DNA of 16,500 nucleotides from Prochlorococcus sp. scB243_496M6 (GTDB taxonomy: Bacteria; Cyanobacteriota; Cyanobacteriia; PCC-6307; Cyanobiaceae), in contig JFMF01000003.1 in NCBI GenBank assembly GCA_000635535.1, forward strand, positions 1 through 16,500. The letters are read 5' to 3'. Positions within the stretch are counted from its first letter, which is position 1. Each line of letters opens with the position of its first letter. A program made the translations under genes and the position numbers. The notes under the pieces were generated by a model that was given only the letters and a program-made list of their open reading frames with translations, searched no databases and was not told where the DNA came from. Below are positions 1,179 to 16,500 of this stretch, one piece after another.

Positions 1179-1199
1179 CCTTGGGGATGTAATACAGGA

Positions 1200-1760: not shown

Positions 1761-2266
1761 TGGCTATGAAATTAGATCATGATGACTTAGATCGCTTAAT
1801 AGAGAAAATCTCTACAAGTGACATACAAGAGTTCTCGCTAGAGGGAGAAGATTTTAAGCTCGAAATAAAAAGGAACTTATTTGATCAGAATCAAGTTATT
1901 AATAATTTAGTTTCAAATACTTCATTTGATAAGCAGACAATTGCTAATCAAAAAACTACAAATGATAAAATAGCTGTCGTTAATGAGCCTGAAGCCCCTC
2001 AGGTGGCGCCCCCAGGACGCTCTGATCTAACTGAAATTACATCTCCTATGGTTGGGACATTTTATAGGGCTGCAGCACCTGGTGAGGAGCCATTTGTCGA
2101 AATAGGGAATAATGTTAAGGTCGGTCAAACTATTTGTATTTTGGAAGCAATGAAGTTAATGAACGAAATTGAATCTGAATTTAATGCTGAAATAGTTGAG
2201 ATCTTAGTTGAAAATGGAACACCAGTTGAATTTGGTCAAGTTTTAATGCGGGTTAAGCAGTCTTGA
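1760..2266 (+). CDS. accB: Biotin carboxyl carrier protein of acetyl-CoA carboxylase
   Basis: This 168-residue protein carries biotin between the biotin carboxylase and carboxyltransferase parts of acetyl-CoA carboxylase, the first committed step of fatty-acid synthesis. The C-terminal biotinyl domain (about 93-168) contains SPMVGTFYRAAAPGE, the thumb region seen in bacterial AccB, and EAMKLMNE with the biotinylated Lys132. Residues 1-40 form a dimerisation-type helix region, followed by a linker with a short Pro/Ala-rich part (EPEAPQVAPPG). The start ATG overlaps the efp stop by one base; an ATG two codons later is a possible alternative. The last 24 bp overlap the convergent pdxA gene. The efp-accB pairing is common in cyanobacteria. 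Confidence 0.95.
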   Translation: MAMKLDHDDLDRLIEKISTSDIQEFSLEGEDFKLEIKRNLFDQNQVINNLVSNTSFDKQTIANQKTTNDKIAVVNEPEAPQVAPPGRSDLTEITSPMVGTFYRAAAPGEEPFVEIGNNVKVGQTICILEAMKLMNEIESEFNAEIVEILVENGTPVEFGQVLMRVKQS

Positions 2267-3277
2267 ATTGTTAGTCATTTCTACGGCAGCCTTAATAGCC
2301 TCAATCATGCTCTGAGATTGAGCAATTCCTTTGCCAGCAATATCAAATCCCGTTCCATGATCTGGGGATGTTCTTATAAAAGGTAAACCGATTGTAGTAT
2401 TGACTGAGTAATTAAGAGCTATCACTTTCATTGGTATTAAACCTTGATCATGATACATAGCAAGAATGCCATCATGCTTTTCAGCATTTTTGTCATTCCA
2501 TGCTTTTACAGAAGAATTCCAACAACTATCAGGTGATAAAGGGCCTAATAATTTAATACCTCTATTCTTTTCATTCCAAGTAATTAATGCATCATTGAGC
2601 CAATCTCTCTCTTCACAACCTAAAATACCTTCTTCGCCAGCGTGAGGGTTTAATCCTGCTACTTTTAAACTAGGGTTAATAGTGTAGGTATTACAAAAAT
2701 CTTTAAAAAGATCCAATTTAGAATGGATTAATTCTGTAGTTAATTTCTTGGGAACCTCAGAAAGGGCTATGTGCGTTGTAGCTAATAAAGTATTAAATCT
2801 CCAACCTGTAATTGGTGATTTAGCTGTGAATAACATTCCAAAGTTTTTAACTCCACATAAATTTGCTAGTACTTCAGTTTGACCAGAGAAGTAATGACCT
2901 GCTAGATACCATGATTTCTTGCAAATTGGTCCAGTTACAAGTGCTGAATTAGGATATTGTTTTACAATTTCTATTGCTTTAGTTAAATATTGAAAACTTG
3001 AATCACCGTAACTTGATTTAGGGTTAATATCTGATGAAGAAATTTCGATATCAAGTATCTTTAATTTTTTTGGATTTGCAAGGTTTTTTAATCCTAAGGA
3101 TCTAAGATTATTGTATGTATTTTGTAATTTTTTTTTTGATCCAACTAATATATAATCAACATTTTCTGGTATCTCATTAGAACAAAGCGCTTTTAAGATT
3201 ATTTCAGGTCCAATACCTGACTCATCTCCTACGCTTAATACTATTTTCAATATTTTATTTGTATTTTGAAAATCCAT
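2243..3277 (-). CDS. pdxA: 4-hydroxythreonine-4-phosphate dehydrogenase (vitamin B6 synthesis)
   Basis: PdxA oxidises 4-phosphohydroxy-L-threonine with NAD in the DXP-dependent pyridoxal-phosphate pathway. The 344-residue length fits the family. Visible landmarks are GDESGIGPEI near residue 17, TGPICKKSW near 115, and the three expected metal-binding histidines in ATTH (His169), NPHAGE (His212) and YHDQGLIP (His276). TSPDHGTGFDIAGKG near 303 is the conserved C-terminal motif. The gene ends 24 bp inside the convergent accB gene and starts 22 bp after the epimerase-like gene on the same strand, so those two are probably one transcript. Confidence 0.95.
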   Translation of the reverse strand: MDFQNTNKILKIVLSVGDESGIGPEIILKALCSNEIPENVDYILVGSKKKLQNTYNNLRSLGLKNLANPKKLKILDIEISSSDINPKSSYGDSSFQYLTKAIEIVKQYPNSALVTGPICKKSWYLAGHYFSGQTEVLANLCGVKNFGMLFTAKSPITGWRFNTLLATTHIALSEVPKKLTTELIHSKLDLFKDFCNTYTINPSLKVAGLNPHAGEEGILGCEERDWLNDALITWNEKNRGIKLLGPLSPDSCWNSSVKAWNDKNAEKHDGILAMYHDQGLIPMKVIALNYSVNTTIGLPFIRTSPDHGTGFDIAGKGIAQSQSMIEAIKAAVEMTNNSRLLNPH

Positions 3278-3299
3278 AAAAATTTTTTAATTTTATTTT

Positions 3300-4082
3300 T
3301 TAACTATTCAGATAGCAATTTTTTAAGCCTATTTTATAGTTTTTATAAATCAGCCTATATCCCAGTGTCTCGCATAAAAGTTTGTTAGAAATTCTTCTAT
3401 TTTCCATCCAAAAAGATTGAGCGATAGGTGATAATTCATCTTTTGCATCCTCAAATAATCTTGGCTTTGGCATTTTTAAACCAAGCAAACTATAGCAATA
3501 CTGAATAACCTCTATCTGAGAGCAGGGTTCATCATCTGCAATATTAATGATTTGGTTAAATTTTAAACAATTTTTATTTTGTAATAAATAAATAATCGCA
3601 TGTGTAATATCAGCAACATGAACTCTTGAAAATACTTGAGCTTTTTTTAAGATAACTCGAATTTTTTGATTTTTGATTGCTTCAAAGGTGGATCTTCCAG
3701 GTCCATAGATTCCAGGTAATCTAAAAATTTGTACTGGTAAAGTGGATTCAATCCATTTTTTTTCACAATTTAATCTATTTTGACTTCTTTTTTGAAGAGG
3801 ATTCGGCGGATCTATCTCAGAAACCCAACCACCTTCAGTGTTTCCATAAACTCCTGTGGTAGATAAGTATCCAACCCATTCAAGGGATAAATCTTGTAGT
3901 TTACTTTGAAGGCTTTTTAAAACAGGATCGTTACCATTTTTGTCAGGAGGTATGCAACTAAGAATATGCGTGACTCCATCAAAAATTTCTGCATGAGGAA
4001 TCACATTGTTTTCACTATTGAAAATAAAACTATTTGGATCTTTGCTTGCAGACCTTGAGCTTGTTAAAACAGTGCAACCCAT
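3300..4082 (-). CDS. YeeZ-like NAD(P)-dependent epimerase/dehydratase-family protein (first ATG too late; see upstream stretch)
   Basis: From the first in-frame ATG the product is 260 residues with extended-SDR landmarks: THILSCIPPD, the Ser/Tyr region YLSTTGVYGNTEGGWVSE, the Arg-Leu-Pro motif FRLPGIYGPGRSTF and RVHVADITHAI. This pattern matches the YeeZ group of atypical NAD(P)-binding proteins, whose substrate is poorly known. The ATG at 4082 omits the nucleotide-binding glycine loop, which is present just upstream in the same frame (FGCGFSGSYFAK), so the true protein is almost certainly longer. It sits 22 bp before pdxA on the same strand. I can assign the fold but not the reaction. Confidence 0.8.
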   Translation of the reverse strand: MGCTVLTSSRSASKDPNSFIFNSENNVIPHAEIFDGVTHILSCIPPDKNGNDPVLKSLQSKLQDLSLEWVGYLSTTGVYGNTEGGWVSEIDPPNPLQKRSQNRLNCEKKWIESTLPVQIFRLPGIYGPGRSTFEAIKNQKIRVILKKAQVFSRVHVADITHAIIYLLQNKNCLKFNQIINIADDEPCSQIEVIQYCYSLLGLKMPKPRLFEDAKDELSPIAQSFWMENRRISNKLLCETLGYRLIYKNYKIGLKNCYLNS

Positions 4083-4177
4083 TTTTCTAATAGTTTTTGC
4101 AAAATAACTGCCGCTGAAACCACATCCAAAGATTAAAAATTTATTTTTTTTTCCGAGTAAACTTGGGGATTTTTCAT
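4083..4177 (-). other. Missing N-terminus of the YeeZ-like gene, probably separated from its ATG by a one-base frame error
   Basis: The frame of the YeeZ-like gene stays open upstream to a TAG at 4179-4181 and encodes KFLIFGCGFSGSYFAKTIRK, a Rossmann beta strand plus GxGxxG loop. No ATG, GTG or TTG exists in this frame before the loop. An ATG at 4175-4177 lies in another frame. Adding one base in the A9 run (4144-4152) or in the C4 run (4165-4168) would join them into a 292-residue protein starting MKNP. Sequencing error, real mutation, slippage or a rare start codon are all possible. Confidence 0.6.
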
Positions 4178-4210
4178 ACTAGACTAAAGTAGTACATATG
4201 TATTATTAAA

Positions 4211-4441
4211 ATGATGAAGACAGTTCTTGAGCCTGATTTAAAATCAAAAACTTTTTCTAATAGCAAAAGTTACTTCTGTCTTGTAGAAAAAAAAGTAAGT
4301 TCAGTTAATTATAAATTCTACCAAAAGTTATTTGTCTTGCTTATTTCATTTTCTACCATTTTAATATTTCCAGAATCGCCAAGAGAATTGGAAAATATAT
4401 GTGAGAATTATAATCCTACAAAAGTATGTAATGTTTGGTAG
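4211..4441 (+). CDS. Small hypothetical protein with one membrane segment
   Basis: This 76-residue reading frame starts at a double ATG (MMK). It has a polar N-terminal half and one hydrophobic segment of about 16 residues (LFVLLISFSTILIF, roughly 41-56). A short tail follows with two cysteines (ENICENYNPTKVCNVW), which could be lumenal or periplasmic. I do not recognise a family. Its stop codon directly abuts the stop of the convergent HNH gene (TAG then TTA, no spacer), a tight packing that supports a real gene. The divergent YeeZ-like gene starts about 30 bp upstream. No function is proposed. Confidence 0.6.
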   Translation: MMKTVLEPDLKSKTFSNSKSYFCLVEKKVSSVNYKFYQKLFVLLISFSTILIFPESPRELENICENYNPTKVCNVW

Positions 4442-4843
4442 TTAAGCTGCTTTATATTCTGATGAATCTTTTATGAAATTTTTATTTTTTATCTTACTTC
4501 TGGGATTAGCCCATTGGAGTAATCTAATCGCTAATCTTAAATCTCCTTCTAGCCAGGCTCTTATAGCCATTGCTCTTCGAGGATCGTAAAATTTTTGCCT
4601 TCTATACCAATACAAAGCATTTTCATCAGATTTATCCCCATTACAAGAAAGACAGGCAGGGACGCAGTTTTCTGTTGTACTTAAGCCTCCTTGGCTTTGT
4701 GGTATGACATGGTCAATAGATTCAGATGGTTTTCCGCAATATATACAACTTTTTCCTGTAAACTTATGAATAGATTTTCGCCATTGTCTTAATCTGAACT
4801 TAGGACATAAATCCTCTAAAAACACCGCATCATTAATATGCAT
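4442..4843 (-). CDS. HNH endonuclease-family protein
   Basis: This 133-residue protein has a complete zinc-associated HNH core. CIYC (33-36) and CLSC (64-67) are the two Cys pairs, DHVIPQSQGG (44-53) supplies the Asp-His start of the catalytic motif, and the Asn is at 59 or 68. The family includes nicking and double-strand nucleases with many roles. Free-standing copies like this are common in cyanobacteria, often with no known job. The C-terminal part (YRRQKFYDPRRAMAIRAWLEGDLRLAIRLLQW) is a conserved-looking basic and aromatic extension. It is separate from the restriction-modification genes 6 kb away, and nothing here links it to an intron or intein. Confidence 0.88.
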   Translation of the reverse strand: MHINDAVFLEDLCPKFRLRQWRKSIHKFTGKSCIYCGKPSESIDHVIPQSQGGLSTTENCVPACLSCNGDKSDENALYWYRRQKFYDPRRAMAIRAWLEGDLRLAIRLLQWANPRSKIKNKNFIKDSSEYKAA

Positions 4844-4923
4844 TCAGAATATTTAATTAAATAAATGATGGCTTGAATATATTAAAAGTCAATATTTATT
4901 TATGCTTTTTAGCTTTAATTTCT

Positions 4924-4948
4924 CACTAAAATGTAATTTAGTGTTTTT
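4924..4948 (+). terminator. Terminator-like hairpin on the plus strand
   Basis: CACTAAA (4924-4930) and TTTAGTG (4937-4943) form a 7-bp stem with a 6-nt loop, followed by five Ts. No plus-strand gene ends nearby (the closest stop is at 4441), so it either ends a small unannotated RNA or is a chance hairpin in AT-rich DNA. I see no other feature in 4844-5006. Confidence 0.3.
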
Positions 4949-4991
4949 AGATACAAAATAGTATTCATTAAATTTGGCAAAAAGTATTATC

Positions 4992-5053
4992 TTTCTGAAA
5001 CCTTTTTTAATAACTATATCTATCAAGTGTTTCATCACTAAAGGTTTCAGAAA
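4992..5053 (-). terminator. 14-bp perfect inverted repeat at the 3' end of the small secreted-protein gene
   Basis: TTTCTGAAACCTTT at 4992-5005 is exactly complementary to AAAGGTTTCAGAAA at 5040-5053, leaving a 34-nt loop. On the minus strand the first arm is the coding tail of the frame-corrected protein (codons for ISETF), the stop codon is in the loop and the second arm is 3' UTR. It has no strong U tract, so it may stabilise the mRNA end or act as a weak terminator. Confidence 0.5.
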
Positions 5054-5136
5054 TTTCCTCATTAGTTTCTTCTAATTCTTTTTCTAATTTTTTTCTTTTC
5101 TTTTCTCTATCTTTTGCTTCCTTTTCTTTTCTTTTT
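5007..5136 (-). other. Out-of-frame C-terminal extension of the small secreted protein (frameshift candidate)
   Basis: In the frame one base off from the preceding gene, this stretch reads as a highly charged Lys/Glu coiled-coil-like tail (EKEAKDREKKRKKLEKELEE), then TNEEISETFSDETLDRYSY and a TAA at 5007-5009. It looks like the genuine end of the protein. Removing one base from the A6 run at 5132-5137 joins the frames into 152 codons. The acidic, aromatic end is unlikely to arise from random AT-rich DNA. Confidence 0.6.
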
Positions 5137-5466
5137 TCGTTCTAAATCTCGTATTAGTTTTCTATTTGGATGAAGATTATCTAAATATTCAACGCAATAA
5201 CTAAATTTTTCTCTTTCTCTTATAACTGTTTCAGTAATTTGCGCGGCTGCATTTTTTGGTGAAACTTTGAAGAATCCTCCCTTTTGTTTTTTTATATATG
5301 TGTAAGCTGCTTCCCAACTACTTTCATGGTCATTTCCGCCATCTCTCATAGTACAAAAAATTTCCGCTCCAAATGAACTTGCATTCACTATTGGAGTTGT
5401 GAGGGTTAGAGGAGTGAAAATTCCCAACGCAAACGGTATTAGTTTTTTCTTCTTTAATCTTTGCAT
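5107..5466 (-). CDS. Small exported cyanobacterial protein of unknown function (C-terminus probably frameshifted)
   Basis: The 119-residue frame begins with a clear signal peptide: KKKK, a hydrophobic stretch LIPFALGIFTPLTLTTPIV, and a likely cleavage after VNA or NASS. The mature part carries GAEIFCTMRDGGNDHESSWEAAYTYI, which I believe is the signature of a small cyanobacterial DUF family, with Cys residues near 38 and 91. The function is unknown; a periplasmic or lumenal location is inferred from the signal. The frame ends abruptly in RKKKRKGSKR, while a second frame continues with a plausible charged tail down to 5007. The complete protein is therefore probably about 152 residues. No partner is evident; the downstream HNH gene is on the same strand. 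Confidence 0.78.
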   Translation of the reverse strand: MQRLKKKKLIPFALGIFTPLTLTTPIVNASSFGAEIFCTMRDGGNDHESSWEAAYTYIKKQKGGFFKVSPKNAAAQITETVIREREKFSYCVEYLDNLHPNRKLIRDLERKKKRKGSKR

Positions 5467-5522
5467 TAGCCTTTTATCTTCTATTTAAAAATATCTTTTA
5501 TTGTGGATATGTCTATAGAAAT

Positions 5523-6044
5523 TTAAGATTTAATCACTCCAAATATATTCAAGCATTTTACAACTAAAGGAAGAATTAATAGTACAGTAATCAATCTTAC
5601 AGCGTGTAAAGTTGCTACCGCAGGTCCCACTCCGTACTCAGACCCTACAAGACTCATACCGCTAATTCCTCCGGGTGCAGCTCCTAAAATTGTTGTAATG
5701 ATATCTATATTAAGTAATCTGCTTGTCCATAAACCAATTGCTAATCCAGTAATAACTAAAGTAAAAGTTATTAATATAGCTGGCCTCCATAAATTTTGAA
5801 TATCAACTAATGAGTCTTTTGTTAATGATGTACCAATGACTGTTCCAATTCCGATTTCTAAAATTGTTCTTGTTCCGATTGGCCACTCTGCGATATCGAC
5901 TTTGCCACTAATGCTAAGTATGCTTGCACCAATTAAAGCACCTGCTAGAGGGGCCGCAGGAATACCTGTTTTTAGAGCTAAAGCTCCAAAAATACAACCT
6001 GCAAAAATATAGTAGATTAGATTTATGTTGGGCATAAATTTCAA
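5523..6044 (-). CDS. AbrB-duplication-type membrane protein (half-length)
   Basis: This 173-residue, strongly hydrophobic protein has about five membrane segments and the conserved end motif APGGISGMSLVGSEYGVGPAVATLHAVRL, which marks the membrane 'AbrB' family (Gneg_AbrB_dup). This family is unrelated to the Bacillus DNA-binding AbrB. Typical members have two such repeats in about 350 residues; this one has a single repeat and would probably work as a dimer. The family is often annotated as a putative transporter or ammonia-monooxygenase-associated protein without firm evidence, so the substrate is unknown. It starts MKFM at 6044; an ATG three codons later is an alternative. It is divergent from the 65-residue gene at 6169. 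Confidence 0.8.
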   Translation of the reverse strand: MKFMPNINLIYYIFAGCIFGALALKTGIPAAPLAGALIGASILSISGKVDIAEWPIGTRTILEIGIGTVIGTSLTKDSLVDIQNLWRPAILITFTLVITGLAIGLWTSRLLNIDIITTILGAAPGGISGMSLVGSEYGVGPAVATLHAVRLITVLLILPLVVKCLNIFGVIKS

Positions 6045-6168
6045 GGATGTTTGAACATAATATTAGAAAAAATTTTATTTGTTTAAGTTTATAGTCAAAT
6101 AATATTTTTAGTTTCCTCTCGTAATGTCCCCTTTTGTTGGCATAATATTAACTAAAGCATGATTTTTT

Positions 6169-6366
6169 ATGTCTTCACAAATTTCTTATAAAGATAATAA
6201 AAACCGCATAAAGAAAAAATTATCTTTTTTTGAGGGTGGTCACCAGCTTGAAAAATTGGAGTTTGCCCTTGCAATAGCTCAAACAAAGGGGGATGAAAAA
6301 AAATCAATCGTTCTTAGAAAAAAGATTGTTGAACTAGGTGGCAATGTTGAAGAGCCAGGCACTTAA
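6169..6366 (+). CDS. Small conserved-looking soluble protein, unknown function
   Basis: This 65-residue frame starts MSSQISYKDN. It is basic at the N-terminus (NRIKKKLSFF) and then mostly helical and charged (LEKLEFALAIAQTKGDEKKSIVLRKKIVEL), with no membrane segment or cysteines. It looks like a short helical-hairpin protein. I do not recognise a named family, though small proteins of this type recur in marine picocyanobacteria. The stop is one base from the stop of the convergent aminotransferase gene. The 124 bp upstream, shared with the divergent AbrB-like gene, hold AT-rich -10-like boxes but no clear promoter. Confidence 0.65.
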   Translation: MSSQISYKDNKNRIKKKLSFFEGGHQLEKLEFALAIAQTKGDEKKSIVLRKKIVELGGNVEEPGT

Positions 6367-6367
6367 C

Positions 6368-7531
6368 TTAATTTTCCTCTAGATATTTTGATACCATAAC
6401 TAATCCTTCACCAGCTTGATGGGCTGTAATCTTGCCGAGGCTTAGAAGTGTATTACTTATTGCAGAAACTACAGTAATAATATCTCTATCATTTACATAT
6501 CCTAAATGTCCGACTCTGAATATTTTTCCCTTCAGATGATCTTGACCACCTGCAAGTAAAATATCAAAATTATTCTTTATTGTTTTTCTAAATTCTTCAG
6601 CATCAATTCCTTCAGTTTTTATTGCAGTAATTGAAGGACTTAAATATTTTTCATCAGCAAATAATTTTAGATTTAAAGCCTTCACTGCATTGCTCATAGC
6701 TAATTTGTGTTTATTGTGTCTTCGGAATATGTTATCCAAGCCTTCTTCTTTCATCATTTTTAAAGCTTCATCTAAAGCAAAAACTAAATTAACTGCTGGG
6801 GTGTATGGATTACTGTTAGCTAAAAGACTTTTTTTGTAAGATTTTAAATTTAAATAAAATTTTGGTAAATTAGATTTTTCTGTAGCTTCCCATGCTTTTT
6901 CGCTCATTGCTATAAAGCTAAGTCCAGGAGGTATCATATATCCCTTTTGTGATCCAGAAGCAACGACATCTAATTTCCATTCATCTACTGGTACATTGCA
7001 AGCTCCAAGACTTGTAACGCAGTCAACAATTGATAAAGCTTTGTTGTGTTGACGAATATATAAACTAATAGTTTCTAAATCATTAATTACACCTGTTGAG
7101 GTTTCAGAATGAGTCAAAATAACCGCCTTTATCTCTTTTTGTTTATCTTCCTCTAATATCTTTTTGAATTCTTCTGGATCAAGCGGAGTACCCCATTCGG
7201 AATCAATTGTTATTACTTCCAGACCAAATTCTTTAGCAACTTTTACCCATCTTTCGCCAAATTTTCCATTTTCTCCACAAATTACTTTATCTCCTTTACT
7301 TAAGGTATTTATTATTCCAGCCTCCATTGCGGCAGTCCCACTACCAGTGATTGTTAGAACATCATTTTGAGTTTGATGAAGCCACTGTAAATTTTTAGTT
7401 GTACTCTCTACGAGATCTTGAAATTCTTTACTGCGATGGCCTATTGGATGCTTACTTAATGCTTGTAAAACTTTTTCTGGAACTGGTGTGGGTCCAGGAA
7501 TCATCAATGATAATTTTTGTTGTATGGCCAC
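6368..7531 (-). CDS. Class V aminotransferase (serine/alanine-glyoxylate type)
   Basis: This 387-residue PLP enzyme has the alanine/serine-glyoxylate aminotransferase signatures: MIPGPTPVPEKVL at the N-terminus, ITGSGTAAMEA for phosphate binding near 61, VDCVTSLGA with the PLP-contacting Asp170, SGSQKGYMIPPGLSF with the Schiff-base Lys196, and a C-terminal FRVGHLGYVND around 343. The family moves amino groups from serine or alanine to glyoxylate or hydroxypyruvate, which in an oxygenic phototroph fits photorespiratory glycolate salvage. The exact donor cannot be read from sequence. It is divergent from cbiD across 60 bp and converges on the 65-residue gene. Confidence 0.92.
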   Translation of the reverse strand: MAIQQKLSLMIPGPTPVPEKVLQALSKHPIGHRSKEFQDLVESTTKNLQWLHQTQNDVLTITGSGTAAMEAGIINTLSKGDKVICGENGKFGERWVKVAKEFGLEVITIDSEWGTPLDPEEFKKILEEDKQKEIKAVILTHSETSTGVINDLETISLYIRQHNKALSIVDCVTSLGACNVPVDEWKLDVVASGSQKGYMIPPGLSFIAMSEKAWEATEKSNLPKFYLNLKSYKKSLLANSNPYTPAVNLVFALDEALKMMKEEGLDNIFRRHNKHKLAMSNAVKALNLKLFADEKYLSPSITAIKTEGIDAEEFRKTIKNNFDILLAGGQDHLKGKIFRVGHLGYVNDRDIITVVSAISNTLLSLGKITAHQAGEGLVMVSKYLEEN

Positions 7532-7591
7532 TTTTTATTAAATAGGTCATTCTTAGATTAGTTCTCATTATATATTTTTCAATTACTTGAT

Positions 7592-8704
7592 TTGAAAAAA
7601 GGATTTTCTTTACCTTTGTGGGTTGCTGGAGCTGCTAAGTCAGCATTAAATAAACTAGCAGGTTTACCATTTAAGAATCATGAACTAATAAAAATTCCTA
7701 ATGAAAAAAAAGAAATAAATATCGAGATTCATTCGGTTGGTTTACTTAAAAATGAATCGCATGCACTAGGAATTACCTTTGCAAAGTCTGGTTTAGATCT
7801 TGATATTACGCAAAACTTAGAGATATGGACAATAGCCTCTTTAGAAAAAATTTCTTTTAATAATCCTGTTCAAACAATTCCAATAAATATTATTGCAGGA
7901 TCTGGTGTAGGCATAAAAGAAGAAACATCTGAGATATGCATTTCTAATTTTGCCAAAGAAGTTTTATATGAAAATTTGTTAGATAGTATTCCTGCCGGCT
8001 TTAATTTGAAATTAGAAATTATTTTCCCAAATGGGAAGTTTTTAGCAGAAAGAACAAGTAACAAGTCATTTGGTATTGTTGATGGATTATCTATTATTGG
8101 TACTTCTGCTGAGACTTATTCGAGTGCTTCACCTGATCAGTTAGAAGAGGCTAAAAAAAATTTAGAAAAGTTAATTCAAAATGATTTTAAAGGTGAAGTT
8201 ATATTTGTTATTGGTGAAAATGGATTAAATTTGGCCAAAACTTATAATGTTAATTTGCCAATTATCAAAATTGGAAATTGGATAGGACCATTATTAGTTG
8301 ATGCTGCAATAAAAAAAGTTAAAACCGTAATTCTTTTTGGTTATCACGGTAAATTAATTAAATTAGCAGGCGGTATTTTTCATACACATAATCATTTGGC
8401 TGATGCAAGAATTGAGATTCTTGTTTATTTAGCCGTTCAAGAAAAGTTACCGCTTGAAATAATAGTTGAATTATCTCAGTTAGATAATCTTGAGAATGCA
8501 TTACAACTTCTTGAAAGATTTAATAAATCTTTAGCTGATAAATTATTCAATAATTTATCAAATACGATCGAAAAGCGTTCTCTTACTTATGTAAATAGGT
8601 ATGTAAAAACCGATATGGAAATCGCATCAATAATTTTTGATAGAAGAAGGAAAATTAGGTGGGCTGGAATTAACGGCAAAAATTATATTTCTTATTTTCA
8701 ATGA
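7592..8704 (+). CDS. cbiD: Cobalt-precorrin-5B (C1)-methyltransferase
   Basis: CbiD methylates C1 during corrin ring contraction in the oxygen-independent cobalamin pathway. The 370-residue protein shows GFSLPLWVAGAAKSAL at the start, INIIAGSGVGI near 98, FGIVDGLSIIGTSAETYSSAS near 160, VIFVIGENGL near 204 and a glycine/histidine-rich ILFGYHGKLIKLAGGIFHTH near 247. It starts with TTG at 7592. There is no ATG in frame between the upstream stop at 7559 and this codon, and the sequence before it is not CbiD-like. guaA follows 54 bp downstream on the same strand and may share its transcript. Confidence 0.9.
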   Translation: MKKGFSLPLWVAGAAKSALNKLAGLPFKNHELIKIPNEKKEINIEIHSVGLLKNESHALGITFAKSGLDLDITQNLEIWTIASLEKISFNNPVQTIPINIIAGSGVGIKEETSEICISNFAKEVLYENLLDSIPAGFNLKLEIIFPNGKFLAERTSNKSFGIVDGLSIIGTSAETYSSASPDQLEEAKKNLEKLIQNDFKGEVIFVIGENGLNLAKTYNVNLPIIKIGNWIGPLLVDAAIKKVKTVILFGYHGKLIKLAGGIFHTHNHLADARIEILVYLAVQEKLPLEIIVELSQLDNLENALQLLERFNKSLADKLFNNLSNTIEKRSLTYVNRYVKTDMEIASIIFDRRRKIRWAGINGKNYISYFQ

Positions 8705-8758
8705 GATTAATTTGTGATTCATTATGCTTTTGTAAATAAATTGAGTTAACTTTTATAC

Positions 8759-10345
8759 ATGAGTCAAATAATTTTAAAAAAAGAACGAGATCCTTCAATA
8801 TTAATCTTGGATTTCGGATCTCAATATTCTGAATTGATTGCAAGAAGAATTAGAGAAACTAATGTTTTTTCTCTTGTAGTAAGTAATTACATTTCAATTG
8901 AGGAAATTAAAAATATTAACCCTAAAGGGATTATTTTGAGTGGGGGGCCAAATTCTGTATATGAACAAAATGCGCCTAAGTGTGATGAAAAAATTTTTAA
9001 TTTAGGAATTCCTATTCTTGGCATATGCTATGGAATGCAATTAATGGTTAAAGAACTTGGAGGATCTGTTATTTCAGCTACAAAAAGAGCTGAATATGGA
9101 AGAGCACCAATTAATATAGACCAAGAATCTGACCTCCTTTCTGATGTAGAAGATAAATCTATTATGTGGATGAGTCATGGCGATTCTATTAATTGTTTGC
9201 CTGATGGATTTAATAAAATTGCTCATACCGAGAATACACTCCATGCAGCAATTTCAAATGATGTAAAGAAATTATTTGGCGTACAATTTCATCCTGAAGT
9301 CATTCATTCAGAGTTTGGGATGACGGTAATTAAAAATTTTGTTTATAAAATTTCTTGCTGTGCAGCTGATTGGACAACCGAAACTTATATAGAGGAAACT
9401 ATTCCCAGGATAAGAGAGCAAGTTGGTAATAAAAAAGTTTTGCTTGCCTTATCTGGAGGAGTGGATTCCTCAACTCTTGCTTTTCTTCTCAATAAAGCTA
9501 TTGGAAATCAGCTTACATGCATGTTTATAGACCAGGGTTTTATGAGAAAAGGTGAACCAGAATTTTTAATGAATTTTTTTGATAAGAAATTTCACATAAA
9601 AGTTGAATATATTAATGCAAGGGAAAGGTTTATTGCCAAATTAAAAGGTATTACTGATCCAGAACAAAAAAGAAAAATTATAGGTGAAGAATTTATTAGA
9701 GTATTTGAGGAAGAAAGTAATAGATTGGGACCTTTTCAGTATTTAGCCCAAGGTACTCTTTATCCTGATGTCATTGAAAGTGCTGGGACTAATATTGATC
9801 CTAAAACAGGAGAAAGAATAGCTGTAAAAATAAAGAGTCATCATAATGTGGGTGGATTGCCAAAAGATTTACAATTTAAATTAGTTGAGCCATTAAGAAA
9901 ACTTTTTAAGGATGAAGTCCGAAAAGTTGGAGCTGCTTTAGGTTTGCCGGATGAAATTATAAAAAGGCACCCATTTCCAGGTCCAGGATTAGCTATAAGA
10001 ATTTTGGGAGAGGTGAATAATGAAAAACTTGATTGTTTAAGAGATGCAGACTGGATAGTAAGAGATGAAATTAAAAAAGCAGGTCTTTACAATGATATTT
10101 GGCAAGCTTTTGCAGTATTGCTACCTGTAAAAACAGTAGGAGTTATGGGTGATAAAAGGACTTATGCATGGCCAATAGTTTTACGTTGTGTATCTAGTGA
10201 AGATGGTATGACAGCTGATTGGTCAAAAATTCCTTTTCATATTTTGGAGAGGATTGCAAATAGAATTGTAAACGAGGTAAGTTCAGTGAATCGAGTTGTT
10301 TATGATATTACAAGCAAACCTCCTGGAACTATTGAGTGGGAATAG
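8759..10345 (+). CDS. guaA: GMP synthase (glutamine-hydrolysing)
   Basis: GuaA converts XMP to GMP using ATP and glutamine. The 528-residue protein has a class I glutamine amidotransferase domain with GICYGMQ (nucleophile Cys90) and FGVQFHPEV (His178, Glu180). It then has an ATP-pyrophosphatase domain with the P-loop [10 protein letters not shown] (232-237 core) and a C-terminal dimerisation domain ending KPPGTIEWE. This fits the full family length and ending. The last six codons, TIEWE-stop, occur again at 12878-12895, which suggests that the 3' end of this gene is the insertion target of the DNA that follows. The gene itself is intact. Confidence 0.97.
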
Positions 10346-10386
10346 TCCAAGAGTAGAGATCCCAGTTATAACTTGAAAAACGTGTG

Positions 10387-10404
10387 CTCACCCGAAGATC
10401 ACCC
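10387..10404 (+). repeat. Arm-type repeat pair 1 of the left block (CTCACCC / ATCACCC, 11-bp phase)
   Basis: CTCACCC at 10387-10393 and ATCACCC at 10398-10404 start exactly 11 bp apart, one helical turn, in direct orientation. This spacing is typical of arm-type or excisionase binding sites of tyrosine-recombinase systems; the binding protein here is inferred. Confidence 0.6.
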
Positions 10405-10447
10405 GTCTTTTTGTTTGCCATTTTGCAATGGATCTGACGTGATCCTG

Positions 10448-10465
10448 CTCACCCTTGTCTCACCC
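10448..10465 (+). repeat. Arm-type repeat pair 2 of the left block (CTCACCC twice, 11-bp phase)
   Basis: CTCACCC at 10448-10454 is repeated exactly at 10459-10465, again 11 bp apart and 61 bp after the first pair. These G+C-rich heptamers stand out in DNA that is mostly A and T. Confidence 0.6.
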
Positions 10466-10514
10466 AGAGCATCATGACTGTCTCTATGGAGAAGTCGTAA
10501 ATCATATAATTTCT

Positions 10515-11513
10515 CTACAAATTTTTAGATCTAAAAATACTTCCAAAATTATATCGCCACTGCAAAGCAAAACTCATTCCAATTTTTCCGTCAAGAGGAC
10601 TTTTTAAAAATCTTACCCATTCATTATCATTCGGCATTCTTGCAAAATCTTTGTGATTATCAATTACCCAATCATTGCAACAATTTATAATAGTATCTTG
10701 TTTATTATTGGCAGATTTAATTTTTTTAAAACAATTTATTTCACTATTATTGATGTTTTCAATGTTCGTTTCTTCATTGGAATTAAAAGATTTGATGTAA
10801 GATTTCAAAATTTTTTCAATTTCTTTCTCAATTTTTTCATCGCTTTCTTGAAGTTTATCTAGCAATGCTAAAAGATTTTTACCTCTCCAATCAGATTGAT
10901 TTAAGTGCGTTAGAAATTGGATCATTTTTTTACAACTTGCCTCATCGTAATTTTCCAAAAGAAATTCTTTATTTTTTAGAGCAATAGAGCAAAGTTTTTT
11001 GTCAGCAATTTCGCTTCCTCTTAAATATTGATATTTAATAATTTGTATTCTTATTGGAGGGGGATTCTTTTTTGCTGTTTGATAATCAGTTAAAAGAATT
11101 AAGGCATCATGTTCGTTACCTAGTATTCTTTCATATGCTGAAAAAAAAGGTTCACTAGTGCAGTAGTTTTCAGAAGGGGATTTTATACCAAGATTGATGG
11201 AAGGAATATCAACTCCTTTGGCAGGATTGATTTTTAATGGATTTGTTTTTAAATCTGAGAATATGTGTTTTTCTAAAGTTCCGACTAATGTCATCTCTAT
11301 TACGCTCCCAATAGTTTTACCATCAAGATTCGACATGGATTGTCCACTTTCTAGTAATTCATACCAATCAGGTAATTCATTATTTCTACCTAATCTTTTT
11401 AATTCATCTTTTATTTCTCCAACATTTTTTCCGCTTAAATAACTATTCAATTTTGCAACAATAGACTTTAAATTATTCTTGATAAGATCTCTTAATTCTT
11501 TTTCTGATTTCAC
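10515..11513 (-). CDS. Probable type II restriction endonuclease, partner of the adjacent methyltransferase
   Basis: This 332-residue soluble protein is called mainly from context: it is translationally coupled to a C5-cytosine methyltransferase, as restriction genes often are. It starts with GTG at 11513, which overlaps the methyltransferase stop as GTGA. No canonical PD-(D/E)xK motif is obvious; the best candidate is the region from Glu73 to Lys111, including GVDIPSINLGIKSPS. Other conserved-looking parts are SEPFFSAYERILGNEHDALILLTDY (about 120-143), NQSDWRGKN (205-213) and the basic C-terminus ALQWRYNFGSIFRSK. An Asn/Glu-rich, low-complexity linker lies at about 243-275. Target sequence unknown. 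Its stop codon falls within the last motif of the left att-like block. Confidence 0.65.
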   Translation of the reverse strand: MKSEKELRDLIKNNLKSIVAKLNSYLSGKNVGEIKDELKRLGRNNELPDWYELLESGQSMSNLDGKTIGSVIEMTLVGTLEKHIFSDLKTNPLKINPAKGVDIPSINLGIKSPSENYCTSEPFFSAYERILGNEHDALILLTDYQTAKKNPPPIRIQIIKYQYLRGSEIADKKLCSIALKNKEFLLENYDEASCKKMIQFLTHLNQSDWRGKNLLALLDKLQESDEKIEKEIEKILKSYIKSFNSNEETNIENINNSEINCFKKIKSANNKQDTIINCCNDWVIDNHKDFARMPNDNEWVRFLKSPLDGKIGMSFALQWRYNFGSIFRSKNL

Positions 11514-12646
11514 AATAGACTTAGTTGTTTTGTGATTTCTTCCAGATTAACTCCATTTTGTGAAATAATTTGGTTTATTGCCCATTTTGCCAATTGGGGA
11601 GGCACCGCGTTTCCATATAGAGAATATTGTCGATAAATAGATGCTGCAGAGCAGTGATGATCGGGAAATCCTTGAATGCGTGCGTATTCAACATTAGTAA
11701 GACGTCTGTAAGAGTTACCAATTTTGTACCTTTCATAATGTCTGCTTGTAGTACATGTCAATGTAGGAGCGATACCCTCGCTTCCGAATATTGTATAACC
11801 CATTCTTGCTCCTCCTTTTTGGTTATATAAAATTTGTACGCCATTTACAAATTTATTCACTAAAGAACTATTTTCGATTCTCTTTAAAGTATCTGAAGTA
11901 AAATAAAAACTTTCGTCTGGATTTTTTTCTAATATTTCTTTTAATCTCTTTCTTGATTTAATTGATGAAAATGTTTTCACTTTTGCGTGAAAGAATTTTC
12001 CATTTTTTGCGATTCCCCAAGGAAAAAATTGCTTTGTATGTTCTTCAATATTTTGCCAAAGTTTATTGTTAGTAATGTTTGATATTAAGTTTGGTCGTAA
12101 ATCCAGCAAATCCTCTTTATTGCATAAGTATGAAAAATTTGCATTAGTTTTTCTTCCAGTGATTACTATTCTCTCTCTAGATTGAGGTAATCCAAAATTG
12201 ACTGCATCTAGTATTCTCCATTCGATTATGTAATCTAGTTGAGAAAGGGTTTTTAAAATGACTGCGAAGTGTCTGCCATTTTCCATTGATAATAATCTTT
12301 TTACATTTTCTAGTACAAAAAATCTTGGTTGCTTTTTTTTAAGAATTTGATTGATTGATTCAAATAAAGTTCCCCTAGTATCATTAATTCCAAGTTTCTT
12401 TCCAGCACTGGAAAATGGTTGACAGGGAAATCCTGCAGTAAGTAGATCATGATCTGGAATGTCTTCATAAACTTTGTTTATATCATCATTAATATGATTT
12501 TTTGATCCAAAATTTTGTACATAAACTTTTGATGCTAATTTATCAATCTCATTACTCCAAATAGTTTCAATACCTAATTCGTCACATCCAATACGAAATC
12601 CACCTATCCCACAAAATAATTCTACTGTTTGAGAGTCAATTCTCAT
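11510..12646 (-). CDS. DNA (cytosine-5)-methyltransferase of a type II restriction-modification system
   Basis: This 378-residue enzyme transfers a methyl group from SAM to C5 of cytosine, protecting host DNA from the partner nuclease. Motifs occur in family order: I, ELFCGIGGFRIG (9-20); IV, GFPCQPFSSAG with catalytic Cys75; VI, ENV (113-115); VIII, QSRERIVITGR (155-165). A target-recognition region follows at about 210-310 (including GGARMGYTIFGSEGIAPTL), then motif IX RRLTNVEYARIQGFPD (314-329) and X, YGNAVPP (344-350). All catalytic residues are present, so it should be active. It precedes the endonuclease on one transcript, an order that lets protection come first. The recognised DNA sequence cannot be deduced. 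Confidence 0.93.
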   Translation of the reverse strand: MRIDSQTVELFCGIGGFRIGCDELGIETIWSNEIDKLASKVYVQNFGSKNHINDDINKVYEDIPDHDLLTAGFPCQPFSSAGKKLGINDTRGTLFESINQILKKKQPRFFVLENVKRLLSMENGRHFAVILKTLSQLDYIIEWRILDAVNFGLPQSRERIVITGRKTNANFSYLCNKEDLLDLRPNLISNITNNKLWQNIEEHTKQFFPWGIAKNGKFFHAKVKTFSSIKSRKRLKEILEKNPDESFYFTSDTLKRIENSSLVNKFVNGVQILYNQKGGARMGYTIFGSEGIAPTLTCTTSRHYERYKIGNSYRRLTNVEYARIQGFPDHHCSAASIYRQYSLYGNAVPPQLAKWAINQIISQNGVNLEEITKQLSLL

Positions 12647-12661
12647 TTTATATATAGCGTT

Positions 12662-12667
12662 AGTATA
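12662..12667 (-). promoter_or_regulatory. Candidate -10 box for the methyltransferase-endonuclease pair
   Basis: Read on the minus strand, TATACT at 12667-12662 lies 15 bp upstream of the methyltransferase ATG at 12646, inside the small palindrome GTATAC. No good -35 box is visible. A palindrome here could also serve autoregulation, as some C5 methyltransferases repress their own promoter, but that is speculation. Confidence 0.3.
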
Positions 12668-12787
12668 CTTTTTTAAAAAAAGGTTTCATTAAAATTTCTT
12701 GAATGGTCATATTAAAAAAACCTTAGATGATTTCTTTAAAATAGTTTCGTATTTTATATAGTGCATATTTTTTTGTCAGGTTTCAGT

Positions 12788-12805
12788 CTCACCTCATGCT
12801 CACCC
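12788..12805 (+). repeat. Arm-type repeat pair at the right end of the cassette (CTCACCT / CTCACCC, 11-bp phase)
   Basis: CTCACCT at 12788-12794 and CTCACCC at 12799-12805 are 11 bp apart and match the heptamers at the cassette's left end, not the TTTCACGT type found just to the right of the next core. This ties 10345-12895 together as one element with matching ends. Confidence 0.55.
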
Positions 12806-12877
12806 AATAAAAGTCTGTTAGTATATCCCCAAGCATCCATTGCAATAACTGATGTTTTCTTTTTTTTTACAACTAGA

Positions 12878-12895
12878 ACCATTGAGTGGGAGTAA
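12878..12895 (+). pseudogene. guaA: Remnant of a guaA 3' end (TIEWE-stop)
   Basis: ACC ATT GAG TGG GAG TAA repeats the last six codons of guaA (ACT ATT GAG TGG GAA TAG). All three base differences from the intact gene in these codons are synonymous, including the stop. The sequence before it (a T-rich run, then AACTAG) is not guaA. It fits an attachment core displaced from guaA by the cassette insertion. Confidence 0.7.
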
Positions 12896-12933
12896 AAAAT
12901 CTTTAACAACCTTGTTATAGACTGAAAAAAAGG

Positions 12934-12952
12934 TTTCACGTAGGTTTCACGT
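12934..12952 (+). repeat. Arm-type repeat pair 1 of the right block (TTTCACGT twice, 11-bp phase)
   Basis: TTTCACGT occurs at 12934-12941 and 12945-12952 with identical AGG spacers before each, 11 bp apart. It occupies the same relative place as the CTCACCC pair at 10387-10404 but has a different heptamer end. Confidence 0.65.
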
Positions 12953-12991
12953 GAATTAGTAACTTATTTGCAATGCTTTTTGATCAGTAGT

Positions 12992-13010
12992 TTTCACGTA
13001 GGTTTCACGT
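12992..13010 (+). repeat. Arm-type repeat pair 2 of the right block (TTTCACGT twice, 11-bp phase)
   Basis: TTTCACGT at 12992-12999 and 13003-13010 repeats the first pair 58 bp downstream, the same layout as the two pairs beside guaA (61 bp). Confidence 0.65.
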
Positions 13011-13228
13011 CAAGGTAAAAGTCTATCTCTGTAGAGAAATCTTATAAAAATAATTTTCTCTACGGTGAATAATCTTCCAAGCTAAATTAATAATTTCTTG
13101 TATTACATCTATACAGAAACTGCTAATGATTAGAATTTTTTTGAGATTTTTCTTTGAAATTACTTGTCTTTATTGATTTTTGTTTATAAAAATGTAGTTA
13201 TCGGCACAAATTTTAGAACTTTAATATT

Positions 13229-14341
13229 TTGGGATCAAATACAGTAAAAACCTTACATAAGGAAAAATCATATTCTTTTTCAAGAATAGGACCTGATATT
13301 TATGGCTCCACTCATCCTCAGAATTTATTATCTGAAATAAAGGAAAGAGCGGAATTTTTATATGAGTTATTGGACAGGCATGTAATTTCCATAGACCCCT
13401 TCAGTAAAGATTGTCTTCTACAACTTTTCAGGCTGGCGGCAAAATTTGAAAGTAATCCAAACAGATATATTTCCCATAACAGTCCCCTCAAAGGAAAGAT
13501 ACTCATAAATGCCTTCTATGAACCAAGCACCAGAACAAGGCTATCGTTTGATAGCGCATGGCACAGGCTGGGTGGGGATTCAATAAATATCACCGATAAA
13601 AGTTCCACTGGAATTGCCAAGGGAGAGACCCATCTGGATATTGCTCATATGTTTAATAATTATGGTGACTGCGTTGTCCTCAGAGAAAGTGACAATGAGG
13701 CGATCTTTGAAATGACAAAATCATTGAGAATTCCAATAATCAATGCCGGTAACGGAATCGATGAACATCCCACTCAAGCTATGTCTGATCTTTATACGAT
13801 TTTTAAATGGAGACCGCATCTGGTTAACAAATCAATTGATGATAGTGAAAAAATAACCATTGGTATCATCGGAGTTCCATCACGAATGAGAACAGTCAGA
13901 TCTCTTCTGAAATTATTCTGCAAGTTTCCATATTTCATAAAAAAAATTATTGTCATTTACGATGACAAATCCATAGATCAGAACGATCTATTTGATGAAG
14001 GCCAGCTGGAACAACTTATTGAATCTGATCTAAAGATTGAGCTGGAGACGGATATGCAAAAAGTATTGCCTTCCCTGGACGTTACCTATATAAATGCAAT
14101 TGCATGGGTTGGAGAAAATTATGAGGTTCATGGAAGTTCATTTAAATTGCACAGTGAATTGCCATTTAAAAAAGATTCCATAATATTGCATCCACTTGCT
14201 CGAGGACCTGAATTGTCAACATCATTAGATCAGACCTCAAAAAATTGGTATTTTGCTCAGGCAAGAGGAGCGGTATTTGTAAGAATGGCATTACTTACCT
14301 GTTTGATGGATAGAACAACAAGAGTGATGGATGTCGTTTAA
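13229..14341 (+). CDS. Aspartate-carbamoyltransferase-like protein in a putative second guaA-linked element
   Basis: This 370-residue protein has the aspartate/ornithine carbamoyltransferase fold signatures. They are the carbamoyl-phosphate loop FYEPSTRTRLSF (97-107), an active-site SSTGIAKGET with Lys131, HPTQAMSDLYTIF (180-192), RMRTVRSL (219-226) and HPLARGPEL (321-329), where pyrimidine-pathway enzymes have HPLPR. It is longer than typical PyrB (about 310-340), with about 50 extra N-terminal residues. HPLxR favours the aspartate type over ornithine, but the Pro-to-Ala change suggests an altered acceptor. The start is TTG at 13229; later starts are possible because ATGs are absent until well inside. 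The amidotransferase gene follows after 4 bp, so the two are likely co-transcribed. A role in pyrimidine synthesis is unlikely, since a core pyrB would be expected elsewhere. Confidence 0.82.
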   Translation: MGSNTVKTLHKEKSYSFSRIGPDIYGSTHPQNLLSEIKERAEFLYELLDRHVISIDPFSKDCLLQLFRLAAKFESNPNRYISHNSPLKGKILINAFYEPSTRTRLSFDSAWHRLGGDSINITDKSSTGIAKGETHLDIAHMFNNYGDCVVLRESDNEAIFEMTKSLRIPIINAGNGIDEHPTQAMSDLYTIFKWRPHLVNKSIDDSEKITIGIIGVPSRMRTVRSLLKLFCKFPYFIKKIIVIYDDKSIDQNDLFDEGQLEQLIESDLKIELETDMQKVLPSLDVTYINAIAWVGENYEVHGSSFKLHSELPFKKDSIILHPLARGPELSTSLDQTSKNWYFAQARGAVFVRMALLTCLMDRTTRVMDVV

Positions 14342-14345
14342 CTAG

Positions 14346-16358
14346 ATGTGTGGAATAGGCGGGGTTTTTAATAAATCAAAAGATAAATCTGTTGAGCCTC
14401 AGATTCTTGTAAATATGGCAGCTATTCAAAGCCACCGTGGACCGGACGGTTTTGGATATAAATTATCAGATGATGCTTCTGTAGGATTCTGTCATGCGAG
14501 ATTATCAATAATAGATTTAAATGAAAATCGAGCCAGACAACCTTTTGTCGGAGGTGCCGAAAATCATATTCTGATGGCACATAATGGTGAATTTTATGAC
14601 TTTCAGAGAATCAGGGCTGATCTTGTTGCACAGGGCGTAAGCTTTTCTTCAAAAAGTGATTCGGAAATATTGCTTAGGCTTTATGAGAAATATGGCATTG
14701 ATGAGTCATTATCTTATTTGCGAGGAGAATTTGCCTTTTCATTGTTTGATGCAGAACAGGATTGTCTTTATCTTGTAAGAGATCGTTTTGGGATTAAACC
14801 TCAATACTGGATTGAGACTGATGATTCTTTAATATTTGGCTCTGAATTAAAAGTATTATTCGCCCATCCATCAGTTGAAAGAAAATTTACCGGTGAAGGA
14901 TTGGTTCATCAATTGATGCAGGTAATGGTTCCTGGCTCTACAGCATTCGCCGGTGTTAAACAAGTTAAACCCGGATATATCCTTAAGGTCAAAAGAGTAA
15001 ATAATAAATTTCAGATAACAGAGGAAAAATTCTGGGATATAAATTTCCCTAAGAAAAACACTTATGAAAGAGATAAAAGTGAAAAATATTATATTGAAAA
15101 TATTAGAAAAGAATTGTTGAGAGCAGTTGAATTAAGAATGGTCGCTGATGTTCCTGTCGGCTGTTATTTGTCCGGTGGAATTGATAGTTGCTCAATTTTG
15201 GGATTGGCTTCTGCCATAAGTCAAAAATCAGTAAAGGCATTCACGATTGGTTTCAGTGATGAAAGATATGATGAAACTTTGATAGCAAAAGAGATGGCTG
15301 TCGCCACAAATGCAGATCATGAGATTTTAAAAATAAATGGAGATGATCTGTATGGGAATTTTGAAAAGGTTCTATGGTTTACTGAAAGATCTATTTATAA
15401 CACCCTTGCAATTGCCAAATACCTTATGAGTAAAAGAGTGAATGAGCTCGATTATAAGGTTGTTATGACAGGAGAGGGCTCAGATGAATTATTTGGTGGC
15501 TATCCCGCTTTTAGAAAAGATATGTATACCTATGGGGTCGGAATTTCTAATTCAGAATCTGAGAATCTTAAAGAGAATCTGGAAAATTCGAATGATATTT
15601 TCAAGGGTGCGATGTTGGCTAATGAAGAGATAAGTAATCGATCTTTCAAGGAATATTTAGGATTTACGCCAAGTTGCCTTCAACCTTGGCTCGCATGTGA
15701 AACTTACGCGAAAAGTCTAGTCTCAATTAAATATAAAGAGATAACGGAAAATTATGATCCCGGCGCGGCAATTTTTAGAGAACTTGATCTTGAACAGTTA
15801 GAAGATAGATACGCAATTGATCAGGCTCAGTACGTTTGGATGAAGACTATGCTTGAGGGCCAAATTCTTACATGGGGTGGAGATAGAGTAGATATGTCAA
15901 ATTCAATGGAAGCTAGACCTGCATTCTTAGATCATCACCTAGCTGAAGCTGCCGTTACTGTTCCTCCTGAATTAAGGATTAAAGACAATGTCGAGAAATA
16001 TGTTTTAAGAGAAGCCATGTCAGGATTGCTGCCTGAATCATTATATAAACGTGAAAAATTCCCTTTCATGGCTCCCCCTTCCCATGCAGATAAAGATAAT
16101 TTAAGTTCTATGCAGGAAATTGTGAATGAATTTTTAAGTCCTGAGAGGATAAGAGAATTTGGAATCTTGGATGCAACAGAAGTAAATGATTTGCTGAATA
16201 AATTTTTTAGTTCAGAGCTAGATGCCTCAGAAAAAGTACAATTGGATGCAATAATCAATCATCTTTTAAGCGTTCAGATCTTATATAAGATTTTTATAAT
16301 TGATGATATCCCTGATAAGGCTCAAAAGATGGCTGATAATTTGGGCTGGAAAGTTTGA
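14346..16358 (+). CDS. Asparagine-synthetase-type glutamine amidotransferase (670 residues)
   Basis: The N-terminal class II glutaminase domain starts directly with the nucleophile (MCGIGG, Cys2) and has SHRGPDGFG (29-37), ARLSIIDL (51-58), MAHNGEFYD (77-85) and DSEILLRLYEKYG (105-117). The synthetase domain has the ATP-pyrophosphatase loop YLSGGIDSCS (274-283) and GEGSDELFGGYPAFR (376-390), then DRVDMSNSMEARPAFLD in the 500s. It is over 100 residues longer than E. coli AsnB (554) and closer in size to enzymes that amidate glycans, peptides or cell-wall precursors. All catalytic features are present, so activity is expected. The acceptor may be aspartate or another carboxylate, perhaps the product of the carbamoyltransferase 4 bp upstream. 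Confidence 0.88.
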   Translation: MCGIGGVFNKSKDKSVEPQILVNMAAIQSHRGPDGFGYKLSDDASVGFCHARLSIIDLNENRARQPFVGGAENHILMAHNGEFYDFQRIRADLVAQGVSFSSKSDSEILLRLYEKYGIDESLSYLRGEFAFSLFDAEQDCLYLVRDRFGIKPQYWIETDDSLIFGSELKVLFAHPSVERKFTGEGLVHQLMQVMVPGSTAFAGVKQVKPGYILKVKRVNNKFQITEEKFWDINFPKKNTYERDKSEKYYIENIRKELLRAVELRMVADVPVGCYLSGGIDSCSILGLASAISQKSVKAFTIGFSDERYDETLIAKEMAVATNADHEILKINGDDLYGNFEKVLWFTERSIYNTLAIAKYLMSKRVNELDYKVVMTGEGSDELFGGYPAFRKDMYTYGVGISNSESENLKENLENSNDIFKGAMLANEEISNRSFKEYLGFTPSCLQPWLACETYAKSLVSIKYKEITENYDPGAAIFRELDLEQLEDRYAIDQAQYVWMKTMLEGQILTWGGDRVDMSNSMEARPAFLDHHLAEAAVTVPPELRIKDNVEKYVLREAMSGLLPESLYKREKFPFMAPPSHADKDNLSSMQEIVNEFLSPERIREFGILDATEVNDLLNKFFSSELDASEKVQLDAIINHLLSVQILYKIFIIDDIPDKAQKMADNLGWKV

Positions 16359-16452
16359 ATTCGTTTCTTAAATTAATTTCTGAAAAGGTGTCAACCAATA
16401 CAGGTTTTATTTGAATAATAAGAGACCTTAAATAGGTTTAGGTAAAAGAAGT

Positions 16453-16500
16453 ATGAGCTATAGCACTGGGTTAAATATCCTAGAGCCACAGGTAATAAAT
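16453..16500 (+). CDS. Probable start of another gene, cut by window edge
   Basis: An ATG at 16453 opens 16 codons (MSYSTGLNILEPQVIN) to the window end, with AGAAG a few bases upstream as a weak ribosome-binding site and an in-frame stop at 16429. It lies 94 bp after the amidotransferase on the same strand and may belong to the same cluster. Too short to identify. Confidence 0.4.
   Translation, partial: MSYSTGLNILEPQVIN

Follow-up and report, generated by a model that had tools for sequence, protein, structure and literature searches.

How do two genes that probably form a restriction-modification (R-M) system come to lie between two copies of the end of guaA in Prochlorococcus sp. scB243_496M6? 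The question is posed by a 16,500-nucleotide stretch of this genome (assembly GCA_000635535.1, contig JFMF01000003.1, positions 1 to 16,500 of the forward strand; hereafter the window), in which the gene for GMP synthase, guaA (8759-10345, plus strand; NF000848, 800 bits), is followed by the R-M genes (10515-12646) and then by a second copy of its own terminus. From comparison with related genomes, we think it likely that a small site-specific cassette without an integrase carries the R-M genes as cargo, that it sits at the guaA 3' end ahead of a second, older cassette, and that a guaA integrase moves it in trans. Because this cassette is one of many that carry other cargo, the site to which it belongs is the broader result: guaA is the target gene, its 3' end serves as the attachment site, and this end is an insertion hotspot in Prochlorococcus.

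The guaA end of about 21 bp, GGAACTATTGAGTGGGAATAG (10325-10345, plus strand), reappears as AGAACCATTGAGTGGGAGTAA (12875-12895, plus strand) at an offset of 2550, and a block of about 190 bp lies 3' of each copy, or core. A first-pass annotation of this DNA had reported that such a block, starting at the guaA terminus, recurs, and the recurrence is real: the stretches 10323-10520 and 12873-13063 align globally with a score of 39.0, against 8.5 for the highest-scoring among 299 other stretches of 191 bp in the window. The annotation further took the two blocks to be attL- and attR-like, a description that we would divide. The core is indeed the direct repeat expected from an insertion; the blocks are not attL and attR of one element but the left ends of two tandem cassettes, block 1 belonging to the R-M cassette and block 2 to a second cassette that starts where the first one ends, at the right core. 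Since both blocks share one plan, with box, repeat pairs and motif at like positions, the near-constant motif offsets recorded earlier are accounted for. The R-M cassette's right arm is instead a repeat pair 5' of the second core (12786-12805, plus strand; GTCTCACCTCATGCTCACCC), which was missing from the earlier listing. An empty counterpart of the R-M cassette, which the annotation had hoped to find in some strains, exists in locus L044, where guaA joins directly to the sequence found after window position 12895, with identity at 337 positions among the 359 aligned (gaps uncounted). The carbamoyltransferase cassette that follows in the window is the same one that lies in L052 and L071 behind inserts of 139 bp and 842 bp, respectively.

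What defines such a cassette? It is a linear unit that opens with a left end (a core, two 11-bp arm repeat pairs and an inverted repeat), continues with a small number of cargo genes, sometimes just one, and closes with a right end that has one repeat pair, followed by a core. In the R-M cassette the left end contains, all on the plus strand, the conserved CCCAGTTATA box (10361-10370), a first arm pair with an 11-bp period, TGCTCACCCGA AGATCACCC (10385-10404), a second, TGCTCACCCTT GTCTCACCC (10446-10465), and the conserved TCTCTATRGAGAARTCGTA motif (10481-10499), at +136 of the left end. Both left pairs and the right pair are of the TCACCC type, and the right pair aligns with the right ends of L019, L030, L147, L158, L159 and L161. 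The second block (12875-13063) has a like layout but TTTCACGT repeats; its first pair (AGGTTTCACGTAGGTTTCACGT, 12931-12952) includes an arm 20-mer of the guaA integrase element in L184, its second lies at 12989-13011, and an inverted repeat at 13026-13063 is the counterpart of 10481-10520, again all on the plus strand.

The same anatomy extends well beyond the window. Among 89 loci, 46 segments longer than 400 bp carry a repeat pair at both ends. In general the left-end order is core, CCCAGTTATA-like box at about +16 (31 of the 46 cassettes, with at most two mismatches in the first 60 bp), 11-bp pairs at about +39 and about +100, then a TCTCTATAGAGAAATCGTA-like motif at about +136 (35 of 46 at up to four mismatches, with 0 matches in 70,000 control bases from the plus strand of 10 empty loci), and the right end has a single pair, some 100-110 bp ahead of its core. 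The arm repeats vary between cassettes and tend to agree within one: left and right arms share a mean of 8.98 of 11 positions, compared with 6.50 (sd 0.21) for right ends shuffled without regard to relatedness, and 0 of 10,000 shuffles reached the observed value. The repeat finder behind this test mis-registers some pairs (L159, L161), and segments lacking a pair at one end were left unscored. A possible incompatibility rule, whereby no arm type would be repeated within an array, gave no signal in a permutation test, with 3 of 40 pairs in 18 arrays matching at 10 or more of 11 positions against 2.97 expected, and we rejected it. The inverted repeat inside the left end (10470-10520 and 13018-13068 in the window) is conserved and has a counterpart in autonomous elements, where it separates attL from the integrase gene; folded as RNA and compared with shuffles, it is stable in the second block (z -4.96) and weakly so in the first (z -1.74), and it is possibly an operator, a directionality-factor site or a leader hairpin.

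How often is the guaA end occupied? A search with one genome per species yielded 576 confirmed guaA loci, and we analyzed the best 80, nearly all of them titled Prochlorococcus; the window guaA shares 95-99% identity with guaA in 61 of these. When loci with less than 100 bp between the guaA stop and the next core gene (cluster c1) are counted as empty, 23 of 80 qualify; the spacing is 100-600 bp in 9 and at least 600 bp in 27, and c1 is not reached in the examined DNA of the other 21, several of which are contig ends. Inserts thus counted lie behind guaA in at least 36 of the 80 loci, and guaA-end copies border many of them. Of the 36 filled loci, 18 have a last core (16 bp) that, together with the 70 bp after it, matches an empty site at about 80% or more (99% for L019 against L001), while the equivalent stretch taken from the guaA terminus gives 62-74%; the core search pattern allowed up to two mismatches and so admits chance cores. 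These boundaries bear directly on an alternative that we regard as unlikely, namely that ordinary homologous recombination through conserved guaA and downstream genes brought the inserts in, the guaA-end copies being relics. Cyanobacterial populations do recombine, and guaA and c1 are both conserved. Yet it leaves unexplained the core copies at the boundaries, the matched arms, and the integrases with the same ends, although it could still spread arrays that had already formed.

The contents of the hotspot are diverse. In a Pfam scan of 50 of the 148 listed insert open reading frames (ORFs), we found sulfotransferase-TPR, TPR, type I R-M, NotI-like R-M, acyltransferase, DnaB-like helicase, HNH, MreB-like and other matches, and many frames had no match. 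L051 and L075 each have some four to five cassettes stacked behind a single guaA, mostly with unlike repeat types. Cargo-free mini-cassettes of 139-148 bp, with one repeat pair between two cores, make up 14 of 15 short segments (the other is 211 bp long); they lie directly 3' of guaA in L012, L027, L037, L046, L052, L058, L062 and others, and 13 of the 80 loci have in common a left sequence that resembles CGGAAAATTGCCTTATTTCATC. Simple deletion from left to right repeat could explain the ones whose left end is ordinary (for example L059 and L067). Ten of the 15 short segments, however, have a left sequence of their own that it does not account for, and we rejected it as a general origin.

Is the window block tied to guaA, or is it the dispersed repeat that the first-pass annotation had allowed for? 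At E <= 0.001 the left block has matches in 58 of 266 genus genomes, of which 12 show at least 75% identity over about 150 bp or more, and the right block in 20 of 266, of which nine show at least 77% over about 90 bp or more. In the pieces of DNA fetched, strong left-block copies sit behind guaA or within the guaA-c1 stretch; the latter position is that of the copy in G225 and of a weaker one in G059, where c1 was named by ORF lengths. The piece from G257 contained neither guaA nor c1. Seven TCACCC elements were compared with the window at the left end and six at the right, and their ends are alike and their cargo differs: a 315-aa protein without a Pfam match in L019, a NotI-like R-M system in L030, methyltransferase domains in L153 and L161, an HNH gene with a PADLOC type II match in L159, cargo without a match in L158, and an integrase in L147. 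This last, autonomous element carries TCACCC pairs on its left and its right, and its similarity to the window is 77% for the left block and 77% for the right. Another right-block match (85%) in the L147 array closes the final cassette, which lacks an integrase and whose left pair belongs to a different type.

If the R-M cassette has no integrase, where would one come from? No integrase match was found in it; its two sizeable ORFs, both on the minus strand, encode the methyltransferase and the probable endonuclease. Integrases are encoded by elements at L036, L069, L077, L147 and L148, and the guaA-adjacent tyrosine recombinases that the annotation had proposed to look for are found. Searching with the L036 integrase, we matched 12 of 266 genus genomes; all five hits at 40% identity or more (L036 included) are located behind guaA, another hit (L090) is a fragment next to guaA, and seven weaker hits showed no guaA in the DNA examined. 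The L147 integrase matched 16 of 400 family genomes, and all 10 of the near-full-length hits with at least 37% identity lie behind guaA, one having an internal stop and two being shared with the L036 set; the broken copy in L175 is also behind guaA, and the other five hits showed no guaA in the DNA examined. These weaker hits (22-35%) were not behind guaA in the DNA examined, and in L177 and L178 no guaA was found on either strand. Intact integrases share with the cassettes both the core and the plan of the left end, and their genes start about 0.2-1.0 kb 3' of that core. Companion genes include a DUF5906 protein and a resolvase in L069, a resolvase in L036, and in L147 a resolvase plus a DUF5906 hit just below cut-off. 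No tRNA gene was seen near integrases in the 12 short loci scanned, an uninformative result. A viral source was tried without success, in that a scan of viral_contigs with the integrase alignment gave no relative, an exact 23-base arm string gave 0 matches, and the methyltransferase gave one partial hit at 37%.

The integrases also appear to track the arms. The structure model has an N-terminal sheet and helix before the core-binding and catalytic parts, and its best PDB matches include Tn1549 Int and lambda Int. Across 12 integrases, two of them nearly identical, N-terminal identity correlates with arm similarity at rho 0.67 (0 of 5000 shuffles), the catalytic part at 0.43 (1 of 5000) and the middle part at 0.19 (650 of 5000). 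In this set the N-terminal domain of the lambda-type integrase covaries with the arm repeats. A different tyrosine recombinase, of about 389 aa and conserved with fixed neighbors, occurs at L189:3515-4684, L190:3022-4191, L191:2971-4140 and L192:3007-4185. Could such a host protein move the cassettes, in the manner of an integron with a fixed recombinase? We consider this very improbable. In its favor, open frames of 389-390 aa account for 22 of 39 PF00589 hits (34 genomes) and the neighbors are fixed in 4 of 4 loci read, but one conserved protein could hardly read so many arm types, and guaA elements bring their own integrase family at the same core. We therefore disfavored it as the mover.

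Overall, we believe that the best reading of the cassettes is as satellites, akin to cis-mobilizable elements (CIMEs), of guaA integrases that would read matching arm repeats. For example, consider a cell that holds the window cassette together with an autonomous element of the same repeat type, which here would be an L147-like TCACCC element. The integrase supplied in trans would bind the arm repeats through its N-terminal domain, and recombination of core with core would excise the cassette as a circle. In another cell the circle could then insert at the end of guaA, where the arriving cassette would rebuild the last guaA codons and shift earlier cassettes outward. What comparison demonstrates is the anatomy, the empty sites, the tandem stacking, the arm matching, and the integrase-coding elements at the same core. 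The annotation's minimal integrase-less R-M element in guaA is thereby supported by the L044 empty site and the guaA-adjacent integrases, and amended in that the blocks are tandem left ends, the endonuclease is a probable one, and the cargoes are many.

Several observations weigh against this reading. The case is entirely comparative, with no excision circle, integration or transfer observed. In the DNA examined, no more than 3 guaA loci out of 80 show an integrase, and a source in trans within the same cell is hypothetical; most cassettes therefore need an integrase from elsewhere or no longer move, and many may be fossils. Left-right similarity falls below 8 in 9 of the 46 cassettes, the window's own being 7, and shared descent, of cassettes and of integrases, is uncorrected in the shuffles. 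Arm types GTTTGTCACG, GTTTTACGTG and GTTACACGTG are unmatched among the 12 intact integrases examined. Finally, the clean last core failed to appear in 18 of the 36 filled loci, nine of which have no core near c1 and nine of which match at 64-73%.

An alternative is that the cassettes are decayed remnants, autonomous guaA elements that lost their integrase and that now move only in cis with their neighbors, as classical CIMEs formed by accretion, or do not move. We regard this as a serious possibility without favoring it. The left ends retain a motif that in autonomous elements stands between attL and the gene for the integrase, broken integrase copies stand beside guaA (L174, L175, L090), and the tandem arrays are compatible with accretion. 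Set against this are the unlike cargo within similar ends, the greater abundance of matched-end cassettes than of integrases (3 of 80 loci), and the arms themselves, which pure decay should erase.

The window's cargo genes illustrate what such cassettes may deliver. The C5 cytosine DNA methyltransferase (11510-12646, minus strand; PF00145, 7e-78; TIGR00675) overlaps by 4 bp the gene for a 332-aa protein (10515-11513, minus strand) that has 1029 homologues at E <= 0.001 and matches the NCBIfam type II endonuclease model NF052465 weakly (37 bits, below the cut-off of 290). This protein has no Pfam match at 0.001 and no PDB sequence match; its model has no PDB fold match at E <= 0.001, the best being DpnI at E 0.23; and no relative was found in plasmids, phages or the 266 genus genomes. 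In the absence of such matches, "endonuclease" stays probable. The R-M label of the annotation accordingly holds for the methyltransferase, which is what a type II system requires of that partner, and leans for the other ORF on the weak match; we consider that the cassette probably carries a DNA-protection enzyme pair, the two being putative partners. The second cassette encodes an aspartate/ornithine carbamoyltransferase-like protein (13229-14341, plus strand; PF02729), whose cluster recurs behind guaA in L044, L052 and L071, and an asparagine-synthase-like protein (14346-16358, plus strand; TIGR01536), with the same cluster in L052 and L071. An M20 peptidase is added to this pair (13229-16358) in L052, and so the pair may belong to a small biosynthetic cluster. 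An HNH endonuclease-like ORF lies 5' of guaA, at 4442-4843.

For the turnover of flexible genes in the streamlined Prochlorococcus genome, a guaA hotspot that is filled in 36 or more of the 80 genomes sampled, with small cassettes and readable codes, would add a second route beside the tRNA-targeted tycheposons. We can tentatively imagine the guaA end as a docking platform shared by marine picocyanobacteria, where recombinase-less cassettes, cargo-free ones included, bear interchangeable arm codes that choose among rare guaA integrases, and through which hosts swap single genes. Just as tentatively, the single genes gained would be defense, sulfotransferase-TPR and R-M genes, acquired without owning a recombinase. 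The arm codes predict which integrase moves which cassette, a prediction that can be checked on plasmids, and the covariation of N-terminus and repeat is a natural data set for arm-site recognition.

How does this compare with known systems? In the titles and abstracts of the open-licence literature, among the part of the matches that we covered, there was no account of a guaA hotspot in picocyanobacteria. A close parallel in insertion site is GIsul2 and other guaA islands, described in PMC9376610 as inserting in the guaA 3' end at GAGTGGGA. This sequence is present in the window core, and the island integrase likewise moves an integrase-less unit; the hosts and the cargo differ, and the window cassette has no integrase of its own. 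Tandem units at one gene end, bordered by 20-bp gene-end copies, are known from the ssrA islands of Dehalococcoides, 15 of which lack an integration module, according to passages of PMC3146451. There a serine recombinase acts, whereas the guaA elements have a lambda-type tyrosine integrase, and those passages describe no arm-repeat code. As for integron gene cassettes, which are defined by an attC site and IntI, the anatomy here is a core plus arm repeats with lambda-type integrases. In the same genus, tycheposons, as summarized in a secondary description (part of PMC10872708), also combine a tyrosine recombinase with cargo, but they occupy tRNA sites and span 4-200 kb, whereas the guaA elements occupy guaA and are mostly below 8 kb; the window cassette lacks the hallmark recombinase. 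A close parallel in organization is the CIME, defined in PMC5704250 as an integrase-less unit that retains attL and attR, and known there from the accretion of integrative and conjugative or mobilizable elements (ICEs and IMEs), in which units stack at one gene end. The window cassette has no integrase or transfer gene and keeps both attL and attR, as cores with arm pairs. Unlike CIMEs, the guaA cassettes are small (integrase-less segments of 0.75 to about 7 kb), often hold one or two genes, and bear cassette-specific arm codes, and we propose that they are mobilized in trans, where CIMEs are mobilized in cis.

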